In this document: piece by piece, positions 11,583 through 18,777 of the stretch
Position numbering within the stretch: the stretch's first letter is position 1
Layout of the letters: each line of letters opens with the position of its first letter
Virus record (IMG/VR): IMGVR_UViG_3300025117_000188
Location: 1 to 30,467 of that record
Source: a virus
Reading direction: 5' to 3' (one strand)
DNA length: 30,467 nt
The notes under the pieces: model-generated
The model's input: only the letters and a program-made list of their open reading frames with translations
Told to the model about the DNA's origin: nothing
Databases searched by the model: none
Translations under genes and position numbers: made by a program

Positions 11583-11930
11583 ATGACGATGCTACAGCAA
11601 CCGCGGCTGCCGACCATGGACGATGAGCCGCTCTACTGCATCCAGCAACCAAATCCCCACGAGGAAGGCGGGCGTCGACTCCTGATCGCTATGAGCGTGC
11701 TTTCCACGAACCCGGACTACCTGGCCGTGCTGCGATGGCTCGGGGCGGAATTCGAGGCGGCGTCCCGTAAGTGCATCGGCTACAGCGGGGACGCGCTTCC
11801 TCGGGCGCAGGGGGCGGCGCAGATATTGTCCGACATCCTTAAGATCCAGATCATGGCGTCCGATGTTCTGCGGGCGGCCAGCAGCAGCGCCAGCAGCAGC
11901 GCGGCAACTTCCCAGCAAAGGCGGCCTTGA
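11583..11930 (+). CDS. Hypothetical virion-module protein, 115 aa
   Basis: A 115-residue protein starting MTMLQQPRLPTMDDEP, one base after the portal stop with AAGGAG in the end of the portal gene. Helical middle (LLIAMSVLSTNPDYLAVLRWLGAEFEAASRKC) and a Ser/Ala-rich tail. Coupled translation with the portal suggests a structural or assembly role; no family recognised. Confidence 0.55.
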   Translation: MTMLQQPRLPTMDDEPLYCIQQPNPHEEGGRRLLIAMSVLSTNPDYLAVLRWLGAEFEAASRKCIGYSGDALPRAQGAAQILSDILKIQIMASDVLRAASSSASSSAATSQQRRP

Positions 11931-12003
11931 AAAGGAGGGGCCGATCCACATACACGAAAAAGAGCTATCAACTCACAACATTTTCCATGAAGGAGCATAC
12001 GAA

Positions 12004-13740
12004 ATGAAAGACAGCACGCGGCGCAACATCGGGAAGGGCCTCACTCTCTTCCTGGGGATTGTTTGTTTTCTGGGCATCACGGCGGCGGCTCGACAAGAGC
12101 TTCCCATCTTCAAGGCATTGATCGAGGCCGGCGGCAGTATCGTGTGGGAAGGGGCGACCAGAAATGCTTTCCAGACCACGTTTGCCGTCGTGGATCCCAC
12201 GGCCGACCACACCATTACGTTCCCCAATTCTACGGGGACGGTGGCGCTCAATCCGGCGGCCGGTAGTATCGAATTCGAGGGAACCACGGCGAATGATTTT
12301 GAAACGACCCTTGCCGTGACTGATCCCACCGCCGACAGGACCGTGACCATTCCAAACGCCTCCGGAACGGTCGTTCTTTCCACGCTTGCTACCAACGCCC
12401 CCGATGCGGCAAACTCGGTTACGGGCGCTTCCAATACTCTCCTGTGGGAAGGGACCGGGGTTGACGCTCACGAAATCGCTCTTGACGCAGCCAATGCCAC
12501 GGCTGATGTGATCTATCGCATGGCCGATGCAGCGGCAGGGACGTATGGCTTCATGTCGTCCACGCTTGCGACCAACGCTCCCGATATAGCCAACAGCGTA
12601 ACGGGCGGAACGAACTCCCTTATTTTTGAGGGATCGGGCGTGGATGCCTTCGAGCACACCATCATCGGCACGAATCCTACGGTAGGCGATCAGGTGTGGA
12701 CCATGCCCGACTTCGCCGTGGCCGTAACCGGTGCGTTCATGTTTTCTTCTCTGGCTACCAACGGGCCGGATATCGCCAACAGCGTGACCGGTGGGACAAA
12801 TTCCCTCATCTTCGAAGGCGCTACGGCCGATGCTTACGAGACCACGGTGACGCCCACCGATCCCACGGCTGACAGAACCATTACCATTCCCAATGCTACG
12901 GGAACGGTTGTGCTTACTCCATCTACCGTGGACATCACTGCTTCCGCCGATACTACGGGTGGCAACGCAGGGGCCAAAACGGAGTTCATCGGTCTACCGC
13001 GCATCATGAACGTAGGTATCGGTACCATGGTGAACGGGACCACGCAGACCGTACTCACCGATATTGGAGATTCCGAGACTCCTGCAACCGACTGGACCGC
13101 AGTTGACGGCGATACTGTCATGTCGAATGACTCCGCCATCTACAGGCAGGGCACGGCGTCCTTGAAAATGGCCGTCGCGGCTACGGCCGATGCGACCGAT
13201 GGGTGTACCAATGCCTTGGCCTCGGGTGACCAGGATTGGACCGATGACGAAGCTCTCGGTATGTGGATTTACACCGACAAGGCATTGGAAGCAGGGGACC
13301 TCATTCTCCAAATCCACGATGTAACGGCGGCCGGCGGATTCACCGCTGTAAATTTTCCTGCCGTTACAGCCAACGCGTGGCAATGGATAGAGTTGGACGT
13401 GACTCTCGGGAACAACAACCTGAAGGACGTCACAACCGATCTGTCCATCGTGCTGAGCGCGGCCGGGGCCGTGCAGGCAGCGGCCGGAGCATTCAACGTC
13501 TACTTCGATTTCATCGTGAAGTGGGACGTGGCTGACGAGGATACGCTTGGGCAAGCCATTCAACAGGACGGTGTTTTGTCCTTGACGATGATTGATGCGA
13601 CGGATTCCGGGGCCACCTCTGCCAACTTGGCGCTCTACACCGACTATTTCGTCCATTACCAGTCCGGGAACGATGCCATTGTTGCAATCTCGGATCAGAG
13701 TGGCGCCGACAAAGTAGGTCTTGCGCTGATTGCGTACTAA
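12004..13740 (+). CDS. Secretory-type repeat protein, putative virion/adhesin protein
   Basis: A 578-residue protein. Start ATG 12004 follows AAGGAGCATACGAA and gives a classic signal peptide (basic RRNIGKG, hydrophobic LTLFLGIVCFLGITAAA, residues 1-29); the frame opens at 11863 but would overlap the previous gene. Residues 45-307 contain five imperfect repeats of about 40 residues with the pattern S-I/L-x-W/F-EG...A-E/Q-TT...DPTADRT-IT-IPN-GTV. This repeat type is known from phage structural proteins. The C-terminal 250 residues look like a jelly-roll or carbohydrate-binding fold (GTASLKMAV...GMWIYTD...NVYFDFIVKWD) plus a small end domain. A signal peptide on a virion protein is unusual. Confidence 0.7.
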   Translation: MKDSTRRNIGKGLTLFLGIVCFLGITAAARQELPIFKALIEAGGSIVWEGATRNAFQTTFAVVDPTADHTITFPNSTGTVALNPAAGSIEFEGTTANDFETTLAVTDPTADRTVTIPNASGTVVLSTLATNAPDAANSVTGASNTLLWEGTGVDAHEIALDAANATADVIYRMADAAAGTYGFMSSTLATNAPDIANSVTGGTNSLIFEGSGVDAFEHTIIGTNPTVGDQVWTMPDFAVAVTGAFMFSSLATNGPDIANSVTGGTNSLIFEGATADAYETTVTPTDPTADRTITIPNATGTVVLTPSTVDITASADTTGGNAGAKTEFIGLPRIMNVGIGTMVNGTTQTVLTDIGDSETPATDWTAVDGDTVMSNDSAIYRQGTASLKMAVAATADATDGCTNALASGDQDWTDDEALGMWIYTDKALEAGDLILQIHDVTAAGGFTAVNFPAVTANAWQWIELDVTLGNNNLKDVTTDLSIVLSAAGAVQAAAGAFNVYFDFIVKWDVADEDTLGQAIQQDGVLSLTMIDATDSGATSANLALYTDYFVHYQSGNDAIVAISDQSGADKVGLALIAY

Positions 13741-16658: not shown

Positions 16659-16784
16659 ATGACTTTCGTGCCAGCAGCAGGAACCCCGAGTTATTCCGGG
16701 ACTTACATTCCGTACATCTTTAGTCGTAAGGTCTTGATTAAGCTGTACGATTCACTCGTACTTCCCTTCATCAGCAACACGGAT
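16659..16784 (+). CDS. Capsid exon 1
   Basis: 42 codons, ATG at 16659 after AAAGGAGCTTCTC. It ends AAC ACG GAT; the final U (16784) forms the P1 U-G pair with G16794 of intron 1. The next in-frame codon is TAG, so an unspliced message yields only a 42-residue peptide. Confidence 0.88.
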
Positions 16785-18777
16785 TAGAAAATAGTCCCCT
16801 GTATCGGCAACGGTGCAGAGCAAATCGGGTGAATTGCGGGGAAGCCTGAGACGGTAATCCGCAGCCAAGCCTGGATGGGCATAGGTTTCCAGGAAGGTTC
16901 AACGCATAGGCTGGTGAGTCCCAACAATAATCCGGCCCACGAGCGCCCGACACCCTTTCGAGGGTGATGAGATATGCTGGGCTCATGGGAAGTCAACCAT
17001 GAGAAGCAGGGATAAAAATCCTTGCGATAACAAAACCGTATGAGGGTAAACATTGATCTTGCCCTCTTGAAACCCGGTGAATTGCTGGAACGTCCTTAGA
17101 GCCATCAACGCTACAACGTGGCCGGTAACGGAGAGCGTGAATGCTTGAAAAGTTGATGGATTGGACAATCAGCGGCCAAGGGGCCTGGAAACAGGTTCAA
17201 GGTTCAGAGACTACCAGAATTATCCTACGGCTCATGCTATGGAGAAACTGGCACGAGTGCCGGGCATCGCTCTTTCGCCATTATGTCCTTGCGTTTCCTT
17301 CCATCCTTTCCTGTATGATGGTGAGAAACGTGTTGGCCGATGGTCATGCAGTCAAGATTTTCATCGTCGTTATTTGATTTTCGTTCGTCTGCGTGATGAA
17401 CGAGGATGGATTTGTCGAGGATTATTCCGAGACGTTTTTCGACAACGAGACGATGCTCCCTCACGTAACCCTTTGAATCAGCGTGCGGGTGATCTGGCTT
17501 CATGACCAAGATGTAGCCACGATCTGTTTTTGCATACCCTTTATGGAAATAGTCGGGAATTCTGATTCCAAATTGTCTGGCAATCTTTGTAACATAGTTG
17601 CCATTGATACCAAGGATTCCCCCCATCTCAGAGGTGGAGAAACCACGCTTCGATAAAACAGAGATGGCCACGGCGTGTTTTGAGACATCTCTCTCCTTCC
17701 TGGAAATGTTGAGCTTCTTCATGTGATTCAAGATTGTCTTTTTGGATACATTGAAATGAAGTGCAACCTTCTCTGCGGAACCGAGATTGAGGTATGCGGA
17801 TTCGATTTCTTCCTTTGTGGCAAAAAGCTTCTTTTCGGCCATGTTCGCTCCTTTGTGGGTTGATTGTATCCCCACAATATCCGATCTTTTGGCGATATGC
17901 AATGAAGATATAGTCCGATCTGCGTGGAAACATGCAGAAGCACGGGATAAAGAGCCTGTGCAAAGAACAATTTTAGGAGATCAAGGCGTACGGCGACACA
18001 GTATTCATCCGGCAAGACCCCGACATCGATATCAAGGACTTCGTGCCCGGCCAGGACCTGGTGGACCAGGCTCCCGAGGAAGATGTCGTGGCCCTCTACA
18101 TCGACAAAGCCAAGTATTGGAACTTCGTCGTCGATGACATCCAACGAGCGCAAAGCGATATTGCTATCGTGGATCGCTGGTCCACGGTCGCAACGGAGCG
18201 CATGAAGCGGCGCATCGAGGCCCCCATTCTCGGGGACATTTACGCCGATGCACACGCCTCGAACATGGGGGCGACGGCCGGCGTCAATACCTCTGCCTTC
18301 AACATGGGCGTATCCGGGACACCGGTGGCCCTCGACAAGACCAACATCCTGGACTACTACGCCCATGCGGCGACGATTCTCCAGGAGCAGAACATACCCG
18401 ACGACGGGACGTGGTGGATGGTCGTCCCGCCCGTGGTGGAGAACATTGTCCAGCGGAGCGACATCAAGGACGCCTCCGTCACCGGCGACGACAAGAGCCC
18501 GCTCAGGAACGGCGGACGCATCGGAAAAATCGGGCGGTTCACCACTTATGTCACGAACAACGTGGACAACGTGGCGGACGGCTCCGGTGTTACGGCGCAT
18601 TACCTCCTTTTCGGTCACAAGATGAGTTTGACCTTCGCCATGCAGATGACGAAGAGCGAGACCCTGCGTACCGAGAAGACCTTCGGCGACAAAATGCGCG
18701 GTTTGAACGTCTATGGCTACAAGGTGGTCAAACCCGAGGCACTGGGCGTTCTGTACGCCAACGTGGTGCTGACCTAG
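16659..18777 (+). CDS. Major capsid protein, split by two group I introns
   Basis: The shell subunit of the head. The coding sequence is join(16659-16784, 17039-17047, 17977-18777), 311 residues. Exon 1 reads MTFVPAAGTPSYSGTYIPYI... to ISNTD and meets an in-frame stop (TAG 16785-16787) two residues before a conserved Y-E-G-E segment expected in this capsid type. The 9-base micro-exon TAT GAG GGT restores YEG and exon 3 continues EIKAYGDTVFIRQDPD. Both junctions follow the group I rule: U ends each upstream exon and G ends each intron. The C-terminal domain (KMSLTFAMQMTKSETLR...GLNVYGYKVVKPEALGVLY) is typical of HK97-fold coats. AAAGGAG precedes the ATG. A gene caller would report only a fragment starting at 18043. 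Family call rests on remembered patterns, position after the scaffold, and length. Confidence 0.85.
16785..17038 (+). ncRNA. Group I intron 1 (254 nt, no ORF)
   Basis: A complete self-splicing ribozyme core can be traced. P1: GGAUUA/UAGUCC with GAAAA loop, splice-site U16784 opposite G16794. P2: CUGUAUC (16799)/GGUGCAG (16812). P3: UCGGGUG (16825-16831)/CGCCCGA (16944-16950). P4: UUGCGG (16834)/CCGCAG (16859). P6: CCUGG/CCAGG (16870, 16889). P7: GCAUA (16904-16908)/UAUGC (16973-16977). P7.1: GGCUGG/CCGGCC. P8: CACCC/GGGUG (16951, 16962). P9: CUCAUGG/CCAUGAG (16982, 16997). A further hairpin GCAGGGAU/AUCCUUGC (17006, 17018) follows. The intron ends in G17038. The P7.1 element suggests subgroup IA. 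It carries no endonuclease, so it is either maintained by splicing alone or moved together with intron 2. Confidence 0.88.
17039..17047 (+). CDS. Capsid micro-exon, 9 nt (Tyr-Glu-Gly)
   Basis: TATGAGGGT. It is preceded by G17038, the last base of intron 1, and ends in U17047, which pairs with G17061 in P1 of intron 2. Its three codons bridge NTD and EIK in frame. Six of its nine bases (17042-17047) also form the exon strand of the P1 helix of intron 2 with GCCCUC (17061-17066), so codon choice and splice-site recognition are tied together. Confidence 0.85.
17237..17842 (-). CDS. HNH homing endonuclease, antisense inside group I intron
   Basis: A 201-residue protein from ATG 17842, which has AAAGGAGCG upstream on its strand; the frame opens at 17902. 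Two helix-turn-helix-like segments (about 11-45 and 55-92, ending KKTILNHMKKLNI and GNYVTKIARQFGI) should give target recognition. The HNH nuclease follows: GYVREHRLVVEKRLG (125-139), VHHADERKSNN with H149/H150, ENL with N162, and HVSHHH (171-176). Such enzymes cut intronless alleles so that repair copies the intron in. It is read opposite to the capsid gene, and its last 14 or so codons overlap the P8 and P3 strands of the ribozyme. Most intron endonuclease genes are sense-oriented. Expression cannot come from the capsid transcript; a weak local promoter is possible at 17874-17902. Confidence 0.85.
   Translation of the reverse strand: MAEKKLFATKEEIESAYLNLGSAEKVALHFNVSKKTILNHMKKLNISRKERDVSKHAVAISVLSKRGFSTSEMGGILGINGNYVTKIARQFGIRIPDYFHKGYAKTDRGYILVMKPDHPHADSKGYVREHRLVVEKRLGIILDKSILVHHADERKSNNDDENLDCMTIGQHVSHHHTGKDGRKRKDIMAKERCPALVPVSP
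17874..17902 (-). promoter_or_regulatory. Possible promoter for the intron endonuclease
   Basis: On the minus strand TTGCAT (17897-17902) and TATTGT (17874-17879) are 17 bases apart, pointing at the ATG 17842. They match consensus at three and four of six positions, so this is weak. The -35 overlaps the 3' strand of P8. Listed because the antisense gene needs its own transcript. Confidence 0.3.
17977..18777 (+). CDS. Capsid exon 3
   Basis: 266 codons plus stop, starting GAG ATC AAG (EIK) directly after the terminal G of intron 2. The codon upstream in this frame is TAG (17974-17976), so the exon cannot start earlier in frame. It contains most of the coat fold, including DFVPGQDLVDQAPEEDVVAL and the C-terminal domain. 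It ends 37 bases before the terminator at 18814. Confidence 0.88.
   Translation, partial: EIKAYGDTVFIRQDPDIDIKDFVPGQDLVDQAPEEDVVALYIDKAKYWNFVVDDIQRAQSDIAIVDRWSTVATERMKRRIEAPILGDIYADAHASNMGATAGVNTSAFNMGVSGTPVALDKTNILDYYAHAATILQEQNIPDDGTWWMVVPPVVENIVQRSDIKDASVTGDDKSPLRNGGRIGKIGRFTTYVTNNVDNVADGSGVTAHYLLFGHKMSLTFAMQMTKSETLRTEKTFGDKMRGLNVYGYKVVKPEALGVLYANVVLT

Follow-up and report, generated by a model that had tools for sequence, protein, structure and literature searches.

A phage major capsid protein gene with two predicted group I introns separated by a nine-nucleotide micro-exon

Organization of the gene

The major capsid protein (MCP) gene of the virus analyzed here very probably carries two group I introns only 9 nt apart, each of which would be spliced by means of its own guide sequence. 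The window, by which we mean the whole stretch of DNA that was analyzed, is a complete virus record of 30,467 bases, and the features of the split gene are collected in Table 1. Exon 1, with a Shine-Dalgarno-like AAAGGAG upstream, codes for MTFVPAAGTPSYSGTYIPYIFSRKVLIKLYDSLVLPFISNTD and then reads into TAG, the first in-frame codon of intron 1, while in intron 2 an in-frame TGA is the third codon; the final base of both introns is G. The original prediction had described this layout, and on re-reading the sequence and its translation we obtained exactly the same coordinates and intron lengths (254 and 929 nt) and the same unspliced reading of 42 codons ended by TAG, and translation of the joined exons returned the 311-residue spliced product, with its 9-nt TATGAGGGT exon, as had been claimed. 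Its central proposal, that two group I introns flank a 9-nt exon in an MCP gene, is supported by covariance model matches (RF00028), by the P1, P10, and terminal G elements, and by conservation, as detailed below.

Table 1. Coordinates of the split MCP gene and its predicted intron elements in the window
Feature	Coordinates	Strand	Description
MCP gene exon 1	16659..16784	+	42 codons, ending ACG GAT; from sequence and translation
Intron 1 P1 hairpin	16781..16797	+	exon GGAU 16781-16784 with IGS GUCC 16794-16797
Intron 1	16785..17038	+	254-nt group I intron without endonuclease gene
Intron 1 P10 strand AUA	16791..16793	+	beside IGS; can pair with UAU 17039-17041, 3 bp
Intron 1 P7 5' strand GCAUA	16904..16908	+	pairs with UAUGC 16973-16977
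Micro-exon TATGAGGGT	17039..17047	+	9 nt, Y-E-G; identical in L110
Intron 2 P1 exon half GAGGGU	17042..17047	+	pairs with IGS GCCCUC 17061-17066, 6 exon bp
Intron 2	17048..17976	+	929-nt group I intron with endonuclease gene
Intron 2 P10 strand UUGAUCUU	17053..17060	+	pairs with exon 3 GAGAUCAA 17977-17984, 8 bp
Intron 2 P7 5' strand GACUA	17209..17213	+	pairs with UAGUC 17911-17915
HNH homing endonuclease gene	17237..17842	-	inside intron 2; 201 aa from ATG, Shine-Dalgarno AAAGGAG
MCP gene exon 3	17977..18777	+	E46 to stop; begins EIKAYGDTV

The identity of the predicted spliced product as an MCP of the Phage_capsid_4/phrog_267 family is clear from its sequence, which matched Pfam Phage_capsid_4 (PF25209) at 42.5 bits (cut-off 27) and the major head protein family phrog_267 at 1.1e-43 over residues 14-308, so that the family matches span most of its length. 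At least 80% of the product was matched by 97 phage records, and capsid proteins of known phages were at most 40.8% identical to it over 95% of its length. As the original prediction had proposed, we aligned the spliced product to intronless capsids, and the alignments with the nearest contiguous relatives were free of gaps at the junctions. The three micro-exon residues were present in 80 of 80 contiguous relatives in a first scan, nearly always as NTDYEGEI. The two closest contiguous relatives, L125 and L126 (61% in exon 3), have NTDYQGEIT at this position. The reading was thus not refuted by intronless relatives without YEG at this place. One search pattern of that scan spanned the exon junction, which makes it unfit for counting intron frequency. 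With two introns and a 9-nt exon in the gene, the virus would have to splice twice, and exactly, to make its shell, and it is a fair inference that head assembly depends on both splicing events.

Elsewhere in the window, past the portal region in the downstream direction, a frame of 625 aa (11863-13740) contained the repeated motifs GGTNSLIFEG and ATNAPDIANSVTG.

Structure of the introns

A search with the Rfam group I model RF00028, another check put forward with the original prediction, matched both introns over the full model (1-253): intron 2 scored 58.0 bits (E 1.9e-12), above the gathering score of 50, and intron 1 scored 48.2 bits (E 2.3e-11), slightly short of that score. The homologue of intron 1 in an independent contig, L110, scored 48.4 bits, and none of 200 dinucleotide shuffles folded as well as the intron 1 region (z -3.66). 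Each intron has a U at the 5' splice site, a P1 with a U.G pair, a P10 pairing, and the terminal G, and intron 1 has its P7 as well. The P1 of intron 1 consists of GGAU/UA with UAGUCC (slash at the splice site), which places the U.G at that site and adds two internal pairs; both this helix (4 exon bp) and the 3-bp P10 are short. For the P10 of intron 2, covariation was seen between GAGATC/GATCTT in the window and GAAATC/GATTTT in L100, a capsid gene with an intron at the same site.

Streptococcus phage SW13 has a split terminase gene with a group I intron, and about 70 bases near the 3' end of intron 1 shared 79.7% identity with that intron. We considered whether intron 1 is a local copy of intron 2 and rejected this. 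Among trimmed cores of the introns at the site of intron 2, pairwise identity was mostly 60-80%, but it fell to 51-64% when these cores were compared with intron 1; the figures are rough, since the 5' part of intron 1 is poorly placed in the core alignment. Because the cores differ more from intron 1 than among themselves, a separate acquisition of intron 1 is more likely.

The nine bases of the micro-exon are fully divided between the two ribozymes, with UAU left to a possible P10 of intron 1 and GAGGGU to the P1 of intron 2, and none used twice; the earlier assignment of six of the nine bases to the latter helix was confirmed (GAGGGU at 17042-17047 with GCCCUC). In the mechanism we propose, the intron 1 guide GUCC would pair with GGAU of exon 1, and exon 1 would be ligated to the micro-exon with the aid of the 3-bp P10 (AUA/UAU); the intron 2 guide GCCCUC would pair with GAGGGU, and the micro-exon would be ligated to exon 3 with the aid of the 8-bp P10. 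The in-frame stops just past each 5' splice site would keep ribosomes off the ribozyme cores.

Inclusion of the micro-exon

The reading that competes best with this one, although we think it improbable, is that the micro-exon is often skipped and that a capsid protein without YEG is made as a minor or regulated product. The length of nine is a multiple of three, so exon 1 joined to exon 3 stays in frame, and skipping between tandem group I introns has been documented for Twort orf142 (23-nt exon), Coxiella 23S rRNA (34 nt), and the SIOphi terminase. Against skipping, YEG is almost invariant in the family, exon 1 offers the intron 2 guide only one contiguous pair, and the P10 strand of intron 1 finds no partner in exon 3, just as the P10 strand of intron 2 finds none in the micro-exon. 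The two guides also differ, which is the change that suppressed skipping in an engineered tandem-intron study. Because the guides differ and the P10 partners do not cross, inclusion is favored over skipping, and retention of the micro-exon in the mature mRNA is predicted from family conservation together with guide pairing. The one visible source of error is that the intron 1 guide can form four pairs, two of them G.U, with the last bases of the micro-exon (GGGU), which could lead to some mis-splicing.

It is far less probable that both ribozymes leave as a unit in a composite intron of 1192 nt with TATGAGGGT as intronic sequence, a removal that would also keep the frame. Both ribozymes are complete, each having a separate P1, P7, and terminal G, relatives that have the second intron alone carry the same TATGAGGGT fused directly to exon 1, and the micro-exon codons are kept in contiguous relatives, and the single intron was rejected on these grounds.

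An independent contig with the same arrangement

Two separately spliced introns around a coding micro-exon were also indicated by a contig from another dataset, IMGVR_UViG_3300009285_005364 (L084/L086/L110), which is 88% identical at the DNA level and shares both introns and, without a single difference, the micro-exon. Identical bases numbered 110/126 in exon 1, 246/254 in intron 1, 9/9 in the micro-exon, 850/925 (92%) in intron 2, and 733/801 in exon 3, with exon identities of 87-92%. At the protein level, 41 of the 42 residues of exon 1 (97.6%) were shared (dN/dS 0.107), the exon 3 peptide was 97% identical (dN/dS 0.058), and the endonuclease gene had a dN/dS of 0.125. Exons 1 and 3 and the endonuclease gene are therefore under purifying selection, and since both exons have been kept protein-coding they must be joined, or at least both translated. 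Only these two genomes show the double-intron arrangement: a scan for the intron 1 core found only L110, and in a P1 scan of introns at the second site, every other capsid gene found had exon 1 immediately upstream.

The same comparison bears on the idea that nothing is spliced, with exon 3 expressed alone from an internal GTG at 18043 and exon 1 a relic, which we regard as very unlikely. Gene callers would indeed give only this 244-aa GTG frame, but exon 1 keeps its ribosome-binding site and nearly all of its residues under the constraint just described, the residues upstream of the GTG are conserved across the family, and the in-frame start in L110 lies in the intron tail, where the window has a stop. 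Expression from the internal start was rejected given the conservation of exon 1 and of the residues before the GTG. The source is a metagenome contig, but an assembly or chimera artefact is next to inconceivable with the layout repeated, 88% identical, in a contig from another dataset, and was likewise rejected.

The second insertion site and its endonucleases

The insertion site of intron 2, YEG^E (site 2), held a single group I intron in about nine further lineages of the capsid gene (L088, L089, L090, L100, L107 (WQG), L115, L121, L149, L152 (and L155), and L153), which we located with exon 3 alone, a profile of exon 3, and a P1 pattern as queries. Every carrier had P1 and the terminal G, and its frame met a stop codon at most four codons past the splice site, and the P1 was present in all 12 of the site-2 introns examined. 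At NTD^YEG, the site of intron 1, none of the other site-2 carriers had an intron, occupancy being found only in the window and L110, and in the genome collection 15 contiguous relatives had no intron. By the sequence evidence, site 2 is a hotspot at which group I introns recur, and it falls within the part of the capsid family that is conserved best.

The exon codons fit a guide of the intron 2 type, with the exon ending in GGT in 12/12 site-2 alleles vs 56/137 intronless relatives and in GAG GGT in 11/12 vs 18/138, although p-values for these comparisons are optimistic owing to relatedness and to the pattern behind two of the twelve alleles. Those two were found with a pattern containing TATGAGGGT, and the remaining 10 are unbiased.

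On the opposite strand inside intron 2 lies a gene for a predicted HNH homing endonuclease, which was absent from the original prediction. Its product matched phrog_7545 (5e-24) and, slightly below the cut-off of 24.8, Pfam HNH_3 (23.8 bits), and the last codons of the gene overlap the ribozyme core (P3 3' strand). L090 and L152 carry similar HNH frames on the opposite strand, and L107, L115, and L149 have theirs in sense orientation; L089 had a different opposite-strand frame, L088, L100, and L121 had none, and L153 seems to carry an endonuclease remnant, the frames of L149, L152, and L153 having been read by eye from the sequence. Homologous HNH genes thus occur in one intron lineage in both orientations (17237-17842 compared with L107:3214-3813 and the L115 intron).

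Recurrence at the site and a dN/dS of 0.125 are consistent with homing by the predicted HNH enzyme. The intron 2 lineage would then comprise mobile introns that have repeatedly entered exactly YEG^E, usually with an HNH homing endonuclease, and the gain and loss of endonucleases there, we infer, follows the known cycle. Intron 1 would probably spread along with intron 2 by co-conversion. A bolder and rather doubtful extension is that the two form a linked mobile pair, in which the intron 2 HNH enzyme cuts the intron-free motif and moves both introns, and the 9-nt exon, all of whose bases serve one ribozyme or the other, imposes a set order of splicing by which capsid synthesis is gated.

Several related loci were noted. 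L088:3683-4000 and L089:3026-4000 hold nearly the same site-2 intron, without and with an endonuclease-like gene in the P5/P6 region, and with L087, their intronless sister, they form a natural gain and loss series. A third insertion position in the same motif was seen in L193 (1944-2982), where about 1 kb containing a LAGLIDADG-like frame separates ...GEIA from NTDYEG... in another capsid gene of the family; this insert had no RF00028 match. Vibrio phage 1.232.O (MG592596; L219:2501-2726) has an unannotated intron 2-like stretch directly after its annotated MCP gene, followed by an HNH nuclease gene.

Comparison with known systems

Closely spaced introns have reportedly been seen in Thiomargarita 16S rRNA genes. 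Among phage capsid genes, the MCP gene of LittleE (mycobacteriophage Cluster J) has a probable group I intron, approximately 820 nt long, whose splicing was demonstrated by RT-PCR and N-terminal sequencing; as in the window, the opposite strand of the intron holds a frame for a homing endonuclease, but there is one intron, and the endonuclease is LAGLIDADG-like rather than HNH (PMC3706429). In phage Twort, a 23-nt exon between introns 2 and 3 of orf142 has been described, with exon skipping, which resembles our case in having a short exon between two group I introns in a phage structural gene, yet the Twort introns are highly similar to each other, whereas those of the window are dissimilar, have different guides, and stand 9 nt apart (PMC10136302). 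A 34-nt exon between group I introns occurs in Coxiella 23S rRNA (PMC10136302). Adjacent group I introns in the ribonucleotide reductase of the Bastillevirinae phage phiNIT1 and in the terminase of SIOphi are spliced in vitro and in vivo and likewise enclose a small exon, but the genes serve replication and packaging rather than the capsid (PMC11878797). In phiNIT1, about 100 nt separate the two Rfam matches, an upper bound for an exon that appears far longer than 9 nt.

Mitochondria have still shorter examples. In placozoan cox1, a micro-exon is isolated, as here, by two group I introns, with RNA-seq support, but it is 1 nt long and the introns are of another core subgroup (IB) (PMC5436844). 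The adjacent introns SPAM3 and SPAM7 of Ceratocystis are also split by a micro-exon, here 1 bp in a fungal mitochondrial rnl, and linked splicing and mobility have been proposed for them (PMC8208691). In the literature accessible to us, we found no other exon as short as 9 nt between group I introns in phage or bacterial genes (Twort 23, Coxiella 34). We therefore regard the split capsid gene as a new variant, in which known ingredients (capsid introns, opposite-strand endonucleases, and 1-nt mitochondrial micro-exons) occur in a new combination.

Implications

Because its nine bases split cleanly between the P10 of one intron and the P1 of the next, the micro-exon offers a compact natural test of neighboring ribozymes, both of whether they act sequentially or simultaneously and of what determines inclusion vs skipping. 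Capsid genes of this kind are missed or truncated by gene callers, which affects the annotation of phages in metagenomes. For the capsid family, which is widespread, the finding marks a recurrent intron site in its most conserved stretch.
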